Of a stretch of DNA of 39,790 nucleotides, positions 8,256-32,356 are shown one piece after another; position 1 is the stretch's first letter, and each line of letters starts with the position of its first letter. The notes beneath the pieces were generated by a model. The model was not told the DNA's origin. It did not search any database and saw only the letters and a list, made by a program, of their open reading frames with translations. Origin of the DNA: a virus; the IMG/VR virus record IMGVR_UViG_3300042691_022216, positions 1 through 39,790 of that record; one strand, 5' to 3'. A program made the translations under genes and the position numbers.

Positions 8256-8262
8256 ATAAATA
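8256..8262 (+). promoter_or_regulatory. Late promoter ATAAATA, predicted leaderless start
   Basis: ATAAATATTGATATG. The predicted start, 6 nt past the last A of the box, is 8268, the A of the next gene's ATG. No Shine-Dalgarno sequence is possible because the promoter and the preceding terminator fill the gap. Confidence 0.6.
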
Positions 8263-8267
8263 TTGAT

Positions 8268-9089
8268 ATGGCCAAACCTTTAAATCGCCGCCTGTTCGGC
8301 AATGACACAATTAATGTCCACAAGTGGACTGCATATCGAAGAAATACTACTGCCACTGACAATTTTATAGGTGGGGAAGGTGTATGGGATATTAAAGTTG
8401 TAAGTACTGGTTCTGGATATATGGACTGGTATCCAGCATGGCAAATACAAACAGGTAGGACTTTAACTGGAACACTAACAGTGTATTGGGAAGCATCGAC
8501 TCCAGAGTTACCTGGTGGAGTAGCAGCTTATGGACAGATGGGTATCAGTATGCGTAACGGCGGCGTTGATCCAGACTCAGTATATTGGTTTGACAAGGGA
8601 TCAGGTTATATACAACCGCCTACAATAAATTTAGCTTGGGATTATGTAAATCAACCAGTTCAACAACGTGCAGTATTTGAAACACAATTAAGAAATATTA
8701 CTCCAAACGCAATAGGAGTATATGCTATTCCGCCTGAACCATTAATATCTGGTCAACCTATAACCAATGTTTCGTATCCTGCTGATATAGTTAAACAGAT
8801 AAGTGATAAGAAATTTCACTTAAAAACAAAAATAAGCAAAGGCGTGTGTGTTCTTACAACAGGAACAATAACAACAGGAACGTGCTCCATATTTGCAGAA
8901 GATTCAAACAAAAATGTCTACTGGGTTACTAAAATACAATTACATAATGTAACACTTTATAGAAAACAATTGTCTGGCCTAGGTCCTTTTATCTACAACA
9001 CAAATGACAGAGCCAAATGGACTTTTGTAGAAGCTAATGGAACAGACACTAGTCTAACAACTACTGTTGTTAAATTATTAAATTGGTAA
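8268..9089 (+). CDS. Putative virion/fibre-region protein (unknown)
   Basis: A 273-residue, Tyr/Trp/Thr/Gly-rich, beta-strand-type protein with no recognised domain. Notable stretches are 'SGYMDWYPAWQIQTGRTLTG' and 'DKGSGYIQPPTINLAWDYV'. It may be a jelly-roll-like binding module. It begins a run of plus-strand fibre-region genes (8268-26245) and is followed 7 nt later by the next ORF, which has no own ribosome binding site, implying coupling. The start ATG is set 3 nt after TAAATATT, so the mRNA is predicted to be leaderless. Confidence 0.75.
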   Translation: MAKPLNRRLFGNDTINVHKWTAYRRNTTATDNFIGGEGVWDIKVVSTGSGYMDWYPAWQIQTGRTLTGTLTVYWEASTPELPGGVAAYGQMGISMRNGGVDPDSVYWFDKGSGYIQPPTINLAWDYVNQPVQQRAVFETQLRNITPNAIGVYAIPPEPLISGQPITNVSYPADIVKQISDKKFHLKTKISKGVCVLTTGTITTGTCSIFAEDSNKNVYWVTKIQLHNVTLYRKQLSGLGPFIYNTNDRAKWTFVEANGTDTSLTTTVVKLLNW

Positions 9090-23434: not shown

Positions 23435-26245
23435 ATGTCATTTCCATTAACCCCAGCTAACGGCGATTTTGCAATAGTCAACGGCATCAAATATCAATAT
23501 TATTTTGCAACAAATAGTTGGCGGAGAGATTTTAATAACGTACTAGATAGATTATTTTTAGTCGGTTATAATCAGGCAACCAATACTGGAACAGGTGATC
23601 TTGTTGTATTTGGTGGCGGCTCATTTGGTAAAAATCTATGGGTTGGAGAAGATCTACATGTTCTTGGTAATATCTACGGAAATCTTATCGGTCTAATTAC
23701 AACTGCCAGCCTAGCTATTTCGGTAAAAGGCGGTGCTCCTGGATCTATTCTATATCAAACTAATACCTCTACTACTGGATTTGTTTCTATTGGTAATACT
23801 GGATCATTGTTGGTAAGCAACGGTGTTATTCCAATATGGACTACTACTGCGGCCATTAGCGTAAACTATGCTAATTCTGCAACTAACCTAGTAGGCGGCG
23901 GCCCGTGGCAAATTCCTTTCCAATCAAATACCGGAACAACTACATTTAATCCGTTATTTCAATACGATAATACCAAACTAATAATTTCTAATACTACAAC
24001 TTCGGTAAATTCGTCTACTGGAGCATTGGTTGTATTGGGCGGTGCGGGATTTGTTACCGACGTAAACATTGGACGAAATTTAACTGTTGGCGGAGACTTT
24101 ACTGTTAACGGAACAACTACATGGGTTAACTCTACAAATTTAGATGTAACTGATAAGAATATTACTATTGCTAAAGGTGCTACAACTGCAACTATGGCAG
24201 ACGGTGCTGGATTAACTATTGAAGGCCCAACAGTTCCAGTTCAATGGGTTTACAACGCAGGAACAGATCGTTGGATATCCAATAGATTAGTTGAAATTCC
24301 TAGCGGATATGTAAATTCTGGAGTGAATTCTACGGCAACAACAAATGGCGCCCTTGTTGTTCGAGGCGGCATTGGAGTAAGTGCCAATGTGGTTGCAGAT
24401 GAATTCTTTGGAAGATTTACAGGACCAATCGGCCTTGCTACTAAAAATGGAGGAAACTTTACCGGATTATCAGCAAATGATATAGTTAATTTTACTTCTA
24501 ATCAAAATGCAGTAAGCACAGCATCGGGTGCAGTAAGAATTGTAGGTGGAGTAGGTATTGGTCAAGATTTGTATGTTGGCGGACAAATCTACGGATATGT
24601 AACTACAGCAACTTTTGCAACAACCGCAGGAGTTGCAAATACCGCAACTACAGCAGACTATGCTACTACTGCATCATTTATTGGCGGCGGCCTTGCTGGC
24701 GAAATTCCTTATCAGTTTGCTCCGGGAATTACAACATTTTCTGCAAACCTTAAATTTATAAGTGCTTCTAACGAGTTTCAAACAGTAAACATTAAAGCAA
24801 ATAAAATAAGAGTTGAAGTAACTAGCACGGCTTATACAGAAGGATTAGAGTTAATCAATACCAATACTCTAGGTAATAAATCTCCTTTGTTTAGGCTGTC
24901 TACTGCATCTAATAGTATTATTTTTGTAAATGATGCAAGCACTCTTAAAATTTACGATAATACTACTACTGATTCTTTATTTTCTCTTAACTCTACTTCT
25001 CTTACCATAGCTCCAAGAACATTAATTAATAACACTCTTACTGTACGTGGAGATATATTACCCAATTTCTTTGACGTATACGACATAGGCAAACAAGATA
25101 ATGCTTGGAGAAATGTGTACGCTAATACCGCAACTATTGATTATGAAGTAAGAGTAGGAGATGTGTCAGTTGACAACTATAGTAGATTTATTCACTATAG
25201 AAATCCAACAGGAAACTTTACTGTTTATGGTATACCTGTTGAATACGGCCAAGCAACAATTATTACTAACGAAGAATCTACTTGGAATCAAGCAATGGTT
25301 CTTGGAGATACCGGGTCATCTAGTGCAACACATAGTCTATTTGGTATAGCAACCGCAGACAATACACTCGGTGCATACACTACTCCGAGTACTGGATTAG
25401 AATCAACTTGGCAACAACGACTTATACTATTTGGAAATGGTATACTTAAAGTTCCAACTGGCGGAATTCAACTTAACGGTAATCTTACTCCGCTTACTAA
25501 TAATTTGTACGACATAGGTTTTTCAACAGCAACCTGGAGAAATTTATTTGTAAGTAGTGCTACCATTACAACTGCTAATATTACAACTGCTAATATTACA
25601 ACTGCTACTGCTATTACATTAAGAAGTACAACTGCTACTATTACAACAGTTAATGCTACGTCTGCTACAGTTATTACACTAGAAAGTACAACTGCTACCA
25701 TTACAAAATTAACAAGTGAAATAGGGGCTGTTACTACACTAGAAAGTACAACTGCTACCATTACGACAGTTAATGCTACATCTGCCACCGTTACTACGAT
25801 AGAAAGTACAACTGCTACTATTACAACAGTTAATGCTACAACAGCTACAATTGACACAATCAATGCTAATATTGGTATAATTAAGACAAGTGTTAATAAT
25901 GCTCAACTTAAAACTGCTTCAACTGGGACAGTTAATCATGATTTAGCTCTTGGTACAACATTCTTTCATGCATTAATAGCGGACAATTTTACTGCTAATT
26001 TTACAAATATGCCAGCAATAGATTCAGGAACAGTTGTTGTAGATTTATACCTACAACAAGACGGAGTTAACAGTCGATTTGCATCTAATGTTACAATCAA
26101 TGGCACAGCAGTTACAGGAGTAATTTTTGGATCTACTGCTCAACATGGAATATACACTACCGGAGTTCATCGTCAAAGAATTACACTTCTAATAAGTGGA
26201 GTCTCCAAATACGCATTAATTGATTACGAAGCGTATCCGCCCTAA
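23435..26245 (+). CDS. Long beta-structured tail fibre protein
   Basis: 936 residues, Thr/Asn/Ser-rich. The N-terminus (FPLTPANGDFAIVNGIKYQY, 'YYFATNSWRRDF') is the fibre-attachment module also seen in other T4-like fibres. It contains repeated 'STGALVV.GG.G...DV.IG..L.VGG' units (about 205-225, 300-325, 355-385) and 'FTVNGTTTWVNSTNLDVTDK'. Repeated 'YDIGK.DNAWRNVYA' / 'YDIGFSTATWRNLFV' segments follow. An 18-residue repeat zone 'LESTTATITTVNATSATV' (about 705-805) and a compact C-terminal head come last. It probably acts as a host-recognition or baseplate fibre. It lies 15 nt past the collagen-like gene, with GGAACATAAG as a weak ribosome binding site. Confidence 0.8.
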   Translation: MSFPLTPANGDFAIVNGIKYQYYFATNSWRRDFNNVLDRLFLVGYNQATNTGTGDLVVFGGGSFGKNLWVGEDLHVLGNIYGNLIGLITTASLAISVKGGAPGSILYQTNTSTTGFVSIGNTGSLLVSNGVIPIWTTTAAISVNYANSATNLVGGGPWQIPFQSNTGTTTFNPLFQYDNTKLIISNTTTSVNSSTGALVVLGGAGFVTDVNIGRNLTVGGDFTVNGTTTWVNSTNLDVTDKNITIAKGATTATMADGAGLTIEGPTVPVQWVYNAGTDRWISNRLVEIPSGYVNSGVNSTATTNGALVVRGGIGVSANVVADEFFGRFTGPIGLATKNGGNFTGLSANDIVNFTSNQNAVSTASGAVRIVGGVGIGQDLYVGGQIYGYVTTATFATTAGVANTATTADYATTASFIGGGLAGEIPYQFAPGITTFSANLKFISASNEFQTVNIKANKIRVEVTSTAYTEGLELINTNTLGNKSPLFRLSTASNSIIFVNDASTLKIYDNTTTDSLFSLNSTSLTIAPRTLINNTLTVRGDILPNFFDVYDIGKQDNAWRNVYANTATIDYEVRVGDVSVDNYSRFIHYRNPTGNFTVYGIPVEYGQATIITNEESTWNQAMVLGDTGSSSATHSLFGIATADNTLGAYTTPSTGLESTWQQRLILFGNGILKVPTGGIQLNGNLTPLTNNLYDIGFSTATWRNLFVSSATITTANITTANITTATAITLRSTTATITTVNATSATVITLESTTATITKLTSEIGAVTTLESTTATITTVNATSATVTTIESTTATITTVNATTATIDTINANIGIIKTSVNNAQLKTASTGTVNHDLALGTTFFHALIADNFTANFTNMPAIDSGTVVVDLYLQQDGVNSRFASNVTINGTAVTGVIFGSTAQHGIYTTGVHRQRITLLISGVSKYALIDYEAYPP
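25555..25870 (+). repeat. Short coding repeats (TTATITTVNATSAT)
   Basis: Near-identical 54-60-bp segments such as GAAAGTACAACTGCTAC(T/C)A alternate with ACAGTTAATGCTAC. They encode a Thr/Ala-rich stalk inside the 936-aa fibre. Confidence 0.85.
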
Positions 26246-26248
26246 AAG

Positions 26249-26277
26249 TTGACGGGTTGGCATCAATTGTATATAAT
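26249..26277 (+). promoter_or_regulatory. Sigma-70-type promoter, predicted leaderless at rmlC
   Basis: TTGACG (26249-26254), a 17-nt spacer and TATAAT (26272-26277): one mismatch from the bacterial consensus. With the -10 hexamer at -12 to -7, the start falls at 26284, the A of the rmlC ATG. This suggests host-polymerase (early) expression, unlike the late TAAATA promoters of the structural genes. Confidence 0.75.
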
Positions 26278-26283
26278 TAATTG

Positions 26284-26853
26284 ATGCTAACAAATTTACC
26301 ACTATCGGGCGCAAAAGTAATCTCTTCAAAAAAAATTAATGACAGCAGGGGTTGGTTTTTAGAAGCCTTCAAAGAAAACTGGCTTGAAGAATACGGAATT
26401 GATCATCGTCTAATATTTGATTGTTGTAGTTTTAACAAATATGCAGGGACTTTGCGAGGATTGCATTCACAACTAGGGGATAGTGTTCCTGGAAAATTAC
26501 TTCGAGTATTATCAGGAAGTGTGCAAGATGTGTTAGTAGATGCAAGAAAAGACAGTCCTACTTACGGACGGCATGTTACTCTTAATCTTTCTGCAGAAAA
26601 CGCCGATATTGTATATATTCCTCGAGGATTTTATCATGGGTTTCTTACATTAGAACCCAATACTCTTGTATATTATAAAGTCGATAGTTACTACGATCCT
26701 AAAACTGACTGCGGTATAGCGTGGAACGATCCGACGCTTAATATAAATTGGGATTTAGATGCGCTTTCTTTTGATAGAGTAAAAAAAATTAATTTAACAA
26801 TAAGCGATCGTGACCAAAAAAATCCTTCATGGGACGATTGCTATAAATTCTAA
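26284..26853 (+). CDS. rmlC: dTDP-4-dehydrorhamnose 3,5-epimerase-like (RmlC)
   Basis: A cupin-fold epimerase of deoxyhexose nucleotide synthesis that converts dTDP-4-keto-6-deoxyglucose to dTDP-4-keto-rhamnose in the classical pathway. The 189 residues carry the family landmarks 'DSRGWFLEAF', 'LRGLHSQ', 'PGKLLRVLSGSVQDVLVDAR', 'SPTYGRHVTL', 'IPRGFYHGFLTLE' and 'YYKVDSYYDPKTDCGIAWND'. Catalytic His is in RGLH and HGF, with Tyr nearby. The usual length is about 180. The start is the ATG at 26284, because the sigma-70 promoter predicts transcription there; an in-frame TTG at 26281 would be upstream of the predicted start. It is followed at once by the reductase gene. The exact substrate is not determined. 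Confidence 0.85.
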   Translation: MLTNLPLSGAKVISSKKINDSRGWFLEAFKENWLEEYGIDHRLIFDCCSFNKYAGTLRGLHSQLGDSVPGKLLRVLSGSVQDVLVDARKDSPTYGRHVTLNLSAENADIVYIPRGFYHGFLTLEPNTLVYYKVDSYYDPKTDCGIAWNDPTLNINWDLDALSFDRVKKINLTISDRDQKNPSWDDCYKF

Positions 26854-26854
26854 T

Positions 26855-27652
26855 ATGAACGTTTTAATTACTGGCGGCAATGGAACAATTGGCAAATTTT
26901 TAAAAGAAACTCTTTCTTATAATATATTTGCACCGTCAAGGAACGAATTAGATCTTGCATCGGCTGATGCTGTTTCTAAATATTTTGACGAAAATAAAAT
27001 AGATACTGTAATACATTGTGCTCTTACAGGAAGAAATGATTTGTTTAGTAAAGATCCTGCCTTTACAACTGATAGCTTATGGATGTTTAGAAATTTATGG
27101 AATAATCGACATAAATTTAATAAGTTAATCAATCTCGGAACTGCTTATGAGTTAGACCTTGAGCAGAACAACGAGAACATTATTGAAACAGAATTTCTAA
27201 ATCATCTACCGTCAACTAGTTACGGATATGCTAAAAATATAATAACAAGAATAATCCATGAAACTGACAAGTTTTATAATTTACGATTGTTTGGAGTATT
27301 TCATGAACATGAAGCAGATAATAGATTTTTTAAAAAATTATACCTTAATAAAGGCATAGAAATTAACAATGACATTTACCTAGACTACATTTACCTCGGT
27401 GATGTTGTTCCTGTCATTAATGAAATTATAGAAAATAAAGTTATATACAAAGACATAAACATGGTGTACTCTCACAAATTTAAATTAAGTGAACTAGCCA
27501 ATGTATTTTGTATTATCAATAATATAGATCCGACTAATGTAGTAATATCTGGTTCTAAAGGAAATAATCTTACAGGTAACAGCTCTAGACTAGAAGCACT
27601 TAATTTAAGAATGCTGGGACTACGGCGAGCATTGGCTTTATATCAACGTTAA
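26855..27652 (+). CDS. NAD(P)-dependent sugar-nucleotide epimerase/reductase (extended SDR)
   Basis: 265 residues from the ATG at 26855, one base after the rmlC stop. The N-terminus 'MNVLITGGNGTIGKFL' is a Rossmann fold with GxxGxxG. 'NELDLASADAVSKYFDENKI' and 'DTVIHCA' match RmlD/NDR-like short-chain dehydrogenases, and 'SYGYAKNIITRI' carries the catalytic YxxxK (Tyr then Lys four residues later). Domain order fits dTDP-4-dehydrorhamnose reductase (RmlD) or a GDP-fucose-synthase-like epimerase/reductase. 'LDYIYLGDVVPVINEIIE' is the usual downstream helix. It forms a two-gene unit with rmlC. The 3' end overlaps the convergent Nudix gene by 15 nt. Substrate is inferred from neighbours only. 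Confidence 0.8.
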   Translation: MNVLITGGNGTIGKFLKETLSYNIFAPSRNELDLASADAVSKYFDENKIDTVIHCALTGRNDLFSKDPAFTTDSLWMFRNLWNNRHKFNKLINLGTAYELDLEQNNENIIETEFLNHLPSTSYGYAKNIITRIIHETDKFYNLRLFGVFHEHEADNRFFKKLYLNKGIEINNDIYLDYIYLGDVVPVINEIIENKVIYKDINMVYSHKFKLSELANVFCIINNIDPTNVVISGSKGNNLTGNSSRLEALNLRMLGLRRALALYQR

Positions 27653-29681: not shown

Positions 29682-30883
29682 TAATTATCTGCCCTTGGTT
29701 TTAATGCTTTACTGAGTGCTTGTTTTTGTTGAATAACTCTTCCGTCAATTGTTGCAGTATTATTATTATTAACAAATGTGCCTCGTTGTGTTAGCTTAAC
29801 ATCTTTGCCTTGATACGGTGCTCCTATTGCGGTATCTTCTGTACCGTGATTAGTGAGCGTCATTCTTACATTATCTTCGTACTTGACCCAACGCTTACCG
29901 TCATATCTAAATAATCGATTTGGAAAATAGTCAGTACGTAAATGAAATTGCCCTTTACTGGCACCAGCTGGAAAATTAAGACCAAAGGAATACGGTGCAC
30001 CGTTTGCAGGAGTAATATCCTCAGTCATATAACCAACATAAAAATCCTTTGAAGGATTAGCTAATGTGGTAGTTACATTAAGTCCTAATTGATCAATAGT
30101 TACATCTGTTTCTGAAGCATCAAGATAATCAACTAGCCCGTTTTCATCTAACGGAATTGTAAATAGATTTTTAGTTTCATATCCACTTAATTTAACATCT
30201 TCTTCTGCTTGAGCAAGAATAGCACGATTAATTTCGATACTCTTATTGTAAGTTGACATTATGTCTCTTAATGTAGATCCATCGCCTGCTCCTGCATCTG
30301 CATCAAGAATTTCTTTAAATTCTTGACTGTCAACTAATGGTTGACATTTTGCTCTTATCAAGTGAGGATACCATGTTTGACTAAAACCTGCGGCTGCTCT
30401 TGTTACATCAGTGATAACATAATAACGTTTTAAGGCAACGGCCGCATCATCTAGAGCATATTCGTCTTTTAAGTGTGGTAATTCTAATACATCACCGGCC
30501 ATAAGTTTTCTACCTAAATTACCAACAGTAGAACTCAAATGGAACGTTACCATAATATTATCATTTTGCAAAAATAATCCAAACTGACTTAAATTAAAGT
30601 CAATATCTTGCATAGTGTAAATTCCACGCAATTGATATACATCTGGATCGTATCGCCTATCTCTGTTTTCTAAAAATATAAGATCTTGTATTCCTAATTC
30701 ACCTATAGGATTTGTATTAACAGGAACACCGGGAGTAGAGTTTCCAGCATCCGGATTAACGGGACCTAGATATTTGTGAACAAACACATCAGTACCGCCC
30801 ACTTGAAACTGTTCGTTTATTGTGCGGTCTAAAAATTTAAAATCATTGCCCTTTTCAGGACGGTACAGAGATAAACGTGGCAT
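29681..30883 (-). CDS. 14: Neck protein gp14
   Basis: gp14 and gp13 form the neck that closes the filled head and attaches the tail. The 400 residues match the gp14 family. 'EQFQVGGTDVFVHKYLGP' is near the start. The conserved 'GIQDLIFLENRDRRYDPDVY', 'QLRGIYTMQDIDFNLSQFGL', 'DNIMVTFHLSSTVGNLGRKL' and 'MAGDVLELPHLKDEYALDD' follow. It is larger than T4 gp14 (256). The C-terminal half has a module 'LFRYDGKRWVKYEDNV' like that in other virion proteins here. It is the first gene of the minus operon (gp14, 68-aa ORF, gp15, Nudix). The late promoter predicts a leader of only 3 nt and there is no Shine-Dalgarno. Confidence 0.93.
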   Translation of the reverse strand: MPRLSLYRPEKGNDFKFLDRTINEQFQVGGTDVFVHKYLGPVNPDAGNSTPGVPVNTNPIGELGIQDLIFLENRDRRYDPDVYQLRGIYTMQDIDFNLSQFGLFLQNDNIMVTFHLSSTVGNLGRKLMAGDVLELPHLKDEYALDDAAVALKRYYVITDVTRAAAGFSQTWYPHLIRAKCQPLVDSQEFKEILDADAGAGDGSTLRDIMSTYNKSIEINRAILAQAEEDVKLSGYETKNLFTIPLDENGLVDYLDASETDVTIDQLGLNVTTTLANPSKDFYVGYMTEDITPANGAPYSFGLNFPAGASKGQFHLRTDYFPNRLFRYDGKRWVKYEDNVRMTLTNHGTEDTAIGAPYQGKDVKLTQRGTFVNNNNTATIDGRVIQQKQALSKALKPRADN

Positions 30884-30891
30884 AGTGACAG

Positions 30892-30899
30892 TATTTATA
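30892..30899 (-). promoter_or_regulatory. Late promoter TATAAATA for gp14 operon
   Basis: TATTTATA on plus is TATAAATA on minus, the exact T4 late consensus. The predicted start at 30886 leaves a 3-nt leader before ATG (30883-30881). It lies one base from the plus-strand CTAAATA of gp13, giving back-to-back divergent promoters. Confidence 0.75.
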
Positions 30900-30900
30900 G

Positions 30901-30907
30901 CTAAATA
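30901..30907 (+). promoter_or_regulatory. Late promoter CTAAATA for gp13, predicted leaderless start
   Basis: CTAAATATTCGTATG. The predicted start at 30913 is the A of the gp13 ATG. There is no Shine-Dalgarno. The whole gp14-gp13 intergenic gap is 29 bp. Confidence 0.7.
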
Positions 30908-30912
30908 TTCGT

Positions 30913-31671
30913 ATGAACGATTCTACAATTTCCCGACAACAAGTAATCGACTACGTTAAACCCTTGCTAGGTGAAGGGATGATCGATGTTGAGTTAGAAC
31001 CCCAGCATTATAATGTTGCAATTGACAGGGCTTTAGCAAAATTTCGTCAACGAAGTAGTAACGCCAGCGAAGAAAGTTATGCATTTTTAACTTTGCATAC
31101 AGATATAAACGAGTATATACTTACTTCTGAAGTAACGGAAGTAAGACAAATATTCCGCAGAAGCGTTGGAAGTAGAAGTGGTGGGGGCGATGGTGGAACA
31201 ATGTTTGAACCATTTAACCTAGCTTATACAAATGCTTATCTTTTAAGCTCTAGCAACATGGGCGGACTTGCTACATATTATGCTTTTGCTAGTTATCAAA
31301 AGCAGGTAGGTAAAATGTTTGGTAGTGAAATCAATTTTTCGTGGAATCCTACTTCCAAGAAGCTTACACTAATGCAACGACCACGCGGCGAAGAACAAAT
31401 TTTATTATGGTTGTATAACCAACGTCCAGATTTTGTATTATTTCAAGACCCGTATGCTGGTATTTGGCTTAAAGATTATGCGTTAGCAACCTGTAAAATT
31501 ATCTTGGGAGAAGCCCGAGAAAAATTTCAAACGATTGCTAGTCCTCAAGGTGGAACAACCCTAAACGGCACTGCCCTCAAAACTGAAGGTAAGGCAGAAA
31601 TTGAGCAACTTGAAATGGATCTTATCAACTACAAAGATGGTGGAAAACCATTGACTTTTGTCATAGGATAA
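30913..31671 (+). CDS. 13: Neck protein gp13
   Basis: The partner of gp14 at the head-tail interface. The 252 residues match gp13 (T4 309). The family features are 'QVIDYVKPLLGEGMIDVELE', 'HYNVAIDRALAKFRQRSSNA', 'EYILTSEVTEVRQIFRRSVG', 'NPTSKKLTLMQRPRGEEQIL' and 'LKDYALATCKIILGEAREKF'. It is transcribed divergently from gp14 through adjacent late promoters and is followed by gene 1 after 28 nt. The start ATG is fixed by TAAATATT-N3-ATG. The order and orientation differ from the T4 13-14-15 series. Confidence 0.95.
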   Translation: MNDSTISRQQVIDYVKPLLGEGMIDVELEPQHYNVAIDRALAKFRQRSSNASEESYAFLTLHTDINEYILTSEVTEVRQIFRRSVGSRSGGGDGGTMFEPFNLAYTNAYLLSSSNMGGLATYYAFASYQKQVGKMFGSEINFSWNPTSKKLTLMQRPRGEEQILLWLYNQRPDFVLFQDPYAGIWLKDYALATCKIILGEAREKFQTIASPQGGTTLNGTALKTEGKAEIEQLEMDLINYKDGGKPLTFVIG

Positions 31672-31679
31672 TGTAAATT
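31651..31679 (+). promoter_or_regulatory. Candidate sigma-70 promoter for gene 1 kinase
   Basis: TTGACT (31651-31656), 17-nt spacer and TAAATT (31674-31679, weak -10). It lies within the end of gp13. The predicted start near 31686 falls inside the hairpin described next. It would suit an early-expressed nucleotide enzyme. Confidence 0.4.
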
Positions 31680-31701
31680 ATAGTATCTCTGGAGATACTA
31701 T
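31680..31701 (+). promoter_or_regulatory. Inverted repeat covering gene 1 ribosome binding site and start
   Basis: ATAGTATCTC (31680-31689) and GAGATACTAT (31692-31701) are perfect 10-bp complements with a 2-nt spacer. The second arm includes the AT of the ATG at 31700, and GGAGA (31691-31695) overlaps it. A read-through mRNA would hide the ribosome binding site; a transcript starting at 31686 would lose most of the left arm. Confidence 0.6.
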
Positions 31702-32356
31702 GATTATAGGCTTTGTTGGTTTTATTGGGTCGGGCAAAGATACTGCCGCAGACTACCTAGTTAACTTTCACGGATTTAGACGTGATTCATTTGCAAACAC
31801 ATTAAAAGACGCGGTTGCGGCTGTATTTGGCTGGGACCGCGTTCTGCTGGAGGGTAGAACTGCGGAAGCCCGGGCGTGGCGAGAAGAAGTCGATATTTGG
31901 TGGGCAGAGCGATTAAAAATGCCCAAACTTACTCCTCGATGGGTATTACAATACTGGGGTACAGAAGTTTGCCGTCAAGGGTTTCACGACGATATCTGGA
32001 TTGCTAGCGTAGAAAATAAGATGCGTAAAACTACCGATAATATTGTTATAAGCGATGTGCGATTTCCTAATGAAATCAAAGCAATTCATAATGCAGGCGG
32101 AAAAGTTATACGAGTAAAACGCGGCGAAGATCCTGAATGGTACGAGGCTGCTATTAGTGCTAATAAAGGTCCTGATGCAAATTCTACTTGGTCATTAAGT
32201 AAGGCTAAATTAGCACAGCTTAAAATTCATGCTAGCGAAACAGCTTGGGTAGGCGGCGACATAGACGTAACAATTTCTAATGATAGTACAATTGATGAAT
32301 TGTTTTTATCGATCAGAAATCAGGTGATAGATCTCCCTGTCTCCATGGCAAATTGA
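31700..32356 (+). CDS. 1: Deoxynucleoside monophosphate kinase (gp1-like)
   Basis: Phosphorylates dNMPs to dNDPs for phage DNA synthesis. 218 residues (T4 gp1 241). P-loop 'GFVGFIGSGKDTAADYLVNF' is at residues 4-23, with GSGKDT as the Walker A. 'FANTLKDAVAAVFGW' is the usual 'LKDA' helix. 'WVLQYWGTEVCRQ' and 'DNIVISDVRFPNE' (Walker B-like, DVRFPNE) are hallmarks of the phage dNMP kinase family. 'AGGKVIRVKRG' follows. It is an early-type metabolic gene set among late virion genes, with a candidate sigma-70 promoter and a start-covering hairpin. Its 3' end overlaps the convergent HNH-like gene by 44 nt. Confidence 0.9.
   Translation: MIIGFVGFIGSGKDTAADYLVNFHGFRRDSFANTLKDAVAAVFGWDRVLLEGRTAEARAWREEVDIWWAERLKMPKLTPRWVLQYWGTEVCRQGFHDDIWIASVENKMRKTTDNIVISDVRFPNEIKAIHNAGGKVIRVKRGEDPEWYEAAISANKGPDANSTWSLSKAKLAQLKIHASETAWVGGDIDVTISNDSTIDELFLSIRNQVIDLPVSMAN

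Follow-up and report, generated by a model that had tools for sequence, protein, structure and literature searches.

Here, we describe a phage start region in which a host-type promoter lies inside an RNA hairpin that would hide the start codon of the gene it serves. We propose, with a probability of roughly 0.6, that a sigma70 promoter produces a leaderless rmlC message from within an AUG-occluding hairpin, the read-through RNA being silenced. The stretch analysed (hereafter the window) comprises 39,790 nucleotides of viral DNA. According to this proposal, the host-type (sigma70) promoter would drive an accessory sugar cassette that a T4-like jumbo phage carries within its late structural block. 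Transcripts made from the internal promoter would begin on the rmlC AUG, be translated as leaderless messages and, having no left arm, stay open, while read-through RNA from the fibre gene, holding both arms, would fold and hide the AUG. Since the read-through RNA would be folded and the promoter's own RNA open, rmlC should be expressed only from its own promoter. This promoter is probably active early, ahead of the switch to the late sigma, and rmlC would stay silent on late read-through RNA, as an early gene within a late block.

The hexamers TTGACG and TATAAT are separated by 17 nt, and the -10 is followed by TAATTG and then by the rmlC ATG (26284-26286; Table 1). A -10 hexamer usually ends at position -7, a spacing that places the predicted +1 on the A of this ATG. 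The first-pass annotation had proposed this same promoter, with +1 at 26284, and its coordinates are exact; with 11 of 12 consensus positions and a 17-nt spacer, it is the top sigma70 match of the window (TTGACA/TATAAT-like hexamers, 16-18 nt apart). The annotation was also right that rmlC has no ribosome binding site, as the Shine-Dalgarno (SD) score is 0 in the window and in the relatives scored, and no SD lies within 20 nt upstream of the gene. The in-frame TTG at 26281 could formally serve as the start instead, but it lacks conservation in the relatives L093-L096. By itself, the promoter match is unremarkable: Markov-1 copies of the window contain a mean of 1.9 sites matching at least 11/12 positions, with at least one site in 49 of 60 copies, and for this reason the near-consensus match was dropped as stand-alone evidence. 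The case therefore rests on context, and three elements of it are above chance: the recurrence of the position relative to the ATG in orthologues whose upstream DNA cannot be aligned, the enclosing hairpin, and the bimodal promoter-to-ATG distances across the clade.

Table 1. Features of the rmlC region and of some T4-type late-box starts in the window
Feature	Position	Strand	Remarks
Tail-fibre-like gene upstream of rmlC	23435..26245	+	Probable source of the read-through RNA
-35 hexamer TTGACG, rmlC promoter	26249..26254	+	TTGACT in L002, TTGACA in L093-L096
Hairpin left arm GTTGGCATCAATTG	26256..26269	+	Within the promoter spacer; missing from RNA begun at 26284
-10 hexamer TATAAT, in hairpin loop	26272..26277	+	Identical in every relative with the cassette
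Hairpin right arm TAATTGATGCTAAC	26278..26291	+	Holds the rmlC start codon
Predicted +1, A of the rmlC ATG	26284..26284	+	Predicted from the spacing rule
rmlC, dTDP-4-dehydrorhamnose 3,5-epimerase family (PF00908)	26284..26853	+	
NAD-dependent epimerase / RmlD-like gene, second in cassette	26855..27652	+	Begins 1 nt past the rmlC stop; no SD
Late box ATAAATA, ATG of gene 8268 5 nt beyond	8256..8270	+	No SD; leaderless late class (predicted)
Late box TATAAATA, ATG of gene 30883(-) 8 nt beyond	30881..30898	-	No SD; orthologue offsets 5-8
Late-box variant CTAAATA, ATG of gp13-like gene 30913 5 nt beyond	30901..30915	+	

The most informative part of the rmlC start region is the hairpin, which was absent from the first-pass annotation. 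It is formed by a 14-bp inverted repeat that encloses both the -10 and the ATG, with the former in the loop and the latter in the right arm. Among the short hairpins of the window it ranks third; ranks 1 (8222) and 5 (36747) are terminator-like, and rank 2 (31676-31705) sits on the start of a dNMP kinase gene. In both rmlC lineages, the folding energy is -15 to -19 kcal/mol for RNA that reads through from the fibre gene, but just -1.3 to -3.2 kcal/mol for RNA begun one base before the rmlC ATG, which leaves the latter nearly unfolded. When both hexamers and the coding part were held fixed and the rest was shuffled (2000 shuffles per sequence), none of the shuffles folded as well for the window, L002 or L093, and only 10 and 2 did so for L094 and L096, respectively. 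In L093-L096 the AUG falls in an interior loop of the hairpin, with a pairing probability of ~0.47. An exact search of viral contigs for the hairpin pattern returned 10 stretches, which we attribute to chance. A strong hairpin is not a requirement for predicted leaderless sigma70 genes, since others with co-directional neighbours lack one.

The comparison of rmlC relatives involves only two independent lineages, the window with L002 and the group L093-L096. L002 matches the window region at 86% DNA identity and folds at -19.3 kcal/mol; its 7 noncoding changes in 40 nt all fall outside TTGAC and TATAAT (probability 0.08 by chance). When the changes were placed at random, the fold was retained as well in 500 of 5000 trials (10%, with few sequences compared); its retention between these two sequences is not significant and was rejected as support by itself. 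In L093, L094, L095 and L096, the rmlC protein shows ~58% identity, and no alignment of the upstream DNA with that of the window is possible. These relatives carry TTGACA-16-TATAAT followed by 5 nt and the ATG, which would put +1 on or beside the start codon, and this promoter also lies inside a start-codon hairpin, of different sequence from that of the window. The promoter-to-ATG offsets of the two lineages, 5 and 6, are thus 1 nt apart. A profile search for further rmlC relatives added only L110 (40% identity), the rest being known loci, and no named phage was found to resemble the region at the DNA level. Because this layout recurs in distant relatives with different sequence, the promoter and its hairpin look like a selected on/off device.

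The main rival explanation treats the inverted repeat as an operator in the DNA, with its centre at the -10, where a dimeric repressor would block the promoter, the RNA fold being a by-product. We consider this unlikely. The dyad is indeed centred on the -10 in both lineages, and overlap with the -10 is frequent among operators. However, the arm sequences differ between the two lineages. Moreover, the changes in L002 and L093 break the DNA symmetry but keep G-U pairs in the RNA, and L002 gains the outer RNA pairs GACTTG/CAAGTT, although all of these observations concern few sequences and none is decisive.

The predicted leaderless start of rmlC has counterparts across the clade. The scan covered 0.69 Mb of clade DNA, including the related contigs G001-G007 (seven contigs, 0.65 Mb). 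Distances from promoter-like motifs to ATGs opening a frame are bimodal in both the sigma70-type and the T4-late-type classes. For the late box NATAAATA, an ATG occurs at offset 4-8 in 52 of 133 distinct sites and at 9-12 in none, while for TTGAC-N16..19-TATAAT it occurs at offset 5-8 in 6 of 42 sites and never at 9-19, with 32 counts at 20-37. T4 late boxes span -13 to -6 (PMC1524935), and therefore an offset of 5 corresponds to a +1 on the ATG; a gp55-like sigma is encoded in G001 and G002. The near starts are poor in SD words of at least 4 nt, which precede 2/57 near versus 28/48 leadered starts in the late class, and 1/13 versus 32/36 in the sigma70 class. The near-late set comprises about 20 protein families, 11 of them in at least two contigs, as counted from mechanical ORFs before filtering, so that some spurious ones are included. 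The first-pass annotation had suggested that two promoter classes give leaderless starts in one genome. Both classes are borne out clade-wide by these SD-poor near sites, but predicted leaderless genes are a minority, as an SD word of at least 4 nt precedes 18 of the 28 starts scored in the window. The sequences support a leaderless mode for a subset of genes, and the majority carry SDs.

Some individual loci of this kind can be described. The divergent genes at 30884-30912 have starts 29 nt apart, each ATG beside a T4-late box and without an SD, and the 29-nt gap is also present in the orthologues in L093 and L096. In L093, L094 and L096, the gp13-like gene is preceded by CATAAATA at offset 5. 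In addition, one family of ~390-400 aa with no PHROG match (L119:1174, L136:3780 and L141:6565) has TATAAT exactly 6 nt before the ATG and no SD; its copy in G001 is preceded by a terminator-like sequence.

A further alternative, to which we give slightly less weight than to the operator, accepts the promoter as real but places the start elsewhere, for example a few nucleotides upstream, so that a short leader would precede an AUG translated in the ordinary way near the 5' end. In its favour, the sequence does not fix the exact start, and the lineage offsets differ by 1 nt. The lack of an SD close to rmlC speaks against this alternative, as does the empty interval at 9-19 among the sigma70 sites of the clade, which is expected if short SD-less leaders are avoided.

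The predicted leaderless late class is a property of this clade. The motif ATAAATA-N4..8-ATG occurs 61 times in the clade versus 13 for the reversed control, whereas in Phosso, Atu_ph07, PA5oct, GAP32, 121Q, Vibrio 2.275.O and T4 pooled it occurs 55 versus 47 times. It is this enrichment, with none comparable in the named relatives, that points to the clade. The class of host alone does not explain it, because two of the named phages without enrichment infect alphaproteobacteria. In the major capsid protein, identity to jumbo phages such as Phosso and GAP32 amounts to 68-70%. A search for the host in genome contigs, using the dNMP kinase, gave one weak and uninformative match, and no host was found. 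We see even odds for a broader proposal, in which leaderless initiation would be a standing mode at sigma70- and gp55-type promoters in this clade of uncultured T4-type jumbo phages, joined to start-codon hairpins, with promoter choice alone deciding translation in a mixed operon.

The surroundings of rmlC also bear on how the gene is expressed. L093-L096 show the gene order fibre, RmlC, epimerase, Nudix, with rmlC at the same place as in the window, while L015, L030 and L066 have the fibre and Nudix genes but no rmlC/epimerase cassette between them; the cassette is therefore accessory. In the window the insert spans 26246-27652 between the fibre and Nudix genes, and L016 has other genes upstream of Nudix. 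The cassette seems to carry its own promoter and hairpin along. No terminator-like site was found to separate rmlC from the upstream fibre gene. At its end (25558-25860), this fibre gene contains diverged tandem repeats (ACAACTGCTACTATTACA-like), which are also self-matching out of register in L002. It is improbable that rmlC is instead translated from the fibre transcript by termination-reinitiation, with the promoter-like sequence and the repeat incidental or stabilising the 3' end of the fibre RNA: the fibre stop is merely 38-46 nt upstream and the coupling-like junction at gene 26855 would fit, but the stop-start distance is long, a strong AUG hairpin intervenes and the promoter is conserved.

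The dNMP kinase locus (31651-31705), likewise within the late block, shows conservation of a sigma70-type promoter: TTGA[CT]N-17-TAAATT-like hexamers are present in 45 of 47 distinct relatives, with a spacer of always 17 nt, and are followed by 19-25 nt to the ATG, usually with an SD-like GGAG/GGGG. Its hairpin (31676-31705) was considered as a second occluding device, but the pairing of the stem is matched by 1651 of 5000 shuffles. With no sign of covariation, we rejected this hairpin and do not count it as support.

In this one clade, then, about 20 gene families (from unfiltered ORFs) carry a T4-late box at the start codon, next to a sigma70 class with the same placement. If our reading is correct, this would give a testable rule for start-codon calling in the genomes of the clade and a hint towards hosts with efficient translation of leaderless RNA. 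Moreover, a gene within a late operon could then be run in a compact manner, with no terminator needed.

The closest proven parallel to the rmlC device is the lysozyme gene e of T4, in which the long early transcript folds so as to cover the start region while late promoters in the 5' arm produce an RNA that escapes; occluding hairpins with an internal promoter are also present at T4 soc, 49 and I-TevI (PMC3014915). As in gene e, the rmlC start is predicted to be hidden in a longer RNA, by a helix evident in the folds and constrained shuffles, and the promoter lies within the DNA of the 5' arm, which by its position upstream of the predicted +1 would be missing from the promoter's own, open RNA. 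In gene e, however, the internal promoters are late, the RNA keeps its SD and early read-through is blocked, whereas rmlC has a host-type promoter and a message predicted to lack a leader, and the RNA blocked would be late read-through. With a sigma70-type promoter and no SD, the rmlC device would therefore work like gene e without being the same element. In the literature searched, with subscription papers mostly outside its scope, we found no leaderless messages in T4-type phages. The Thermus phage phiYS40 has leaderless middle and late mRNAs (PMC3594737), and it resembles the clade in having many leaderless messages, here predicted. It differs in host and phage type, and the part of its description consulted mentions no occluding hairpin; in the clade, moreover, leaderless starts are predicted at both sigma70-type and T4-late-type promoters. 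Finally, the clade shares with T4 late promoters the box TATAAATA (-13 to -6) and, in G001 and G002, the gp55-like sigma. In contrast to T4 and the six jumbo relatives, where no such enrichment is seen, many of its boxes would put +1 on or within 3 nt of the ATG.
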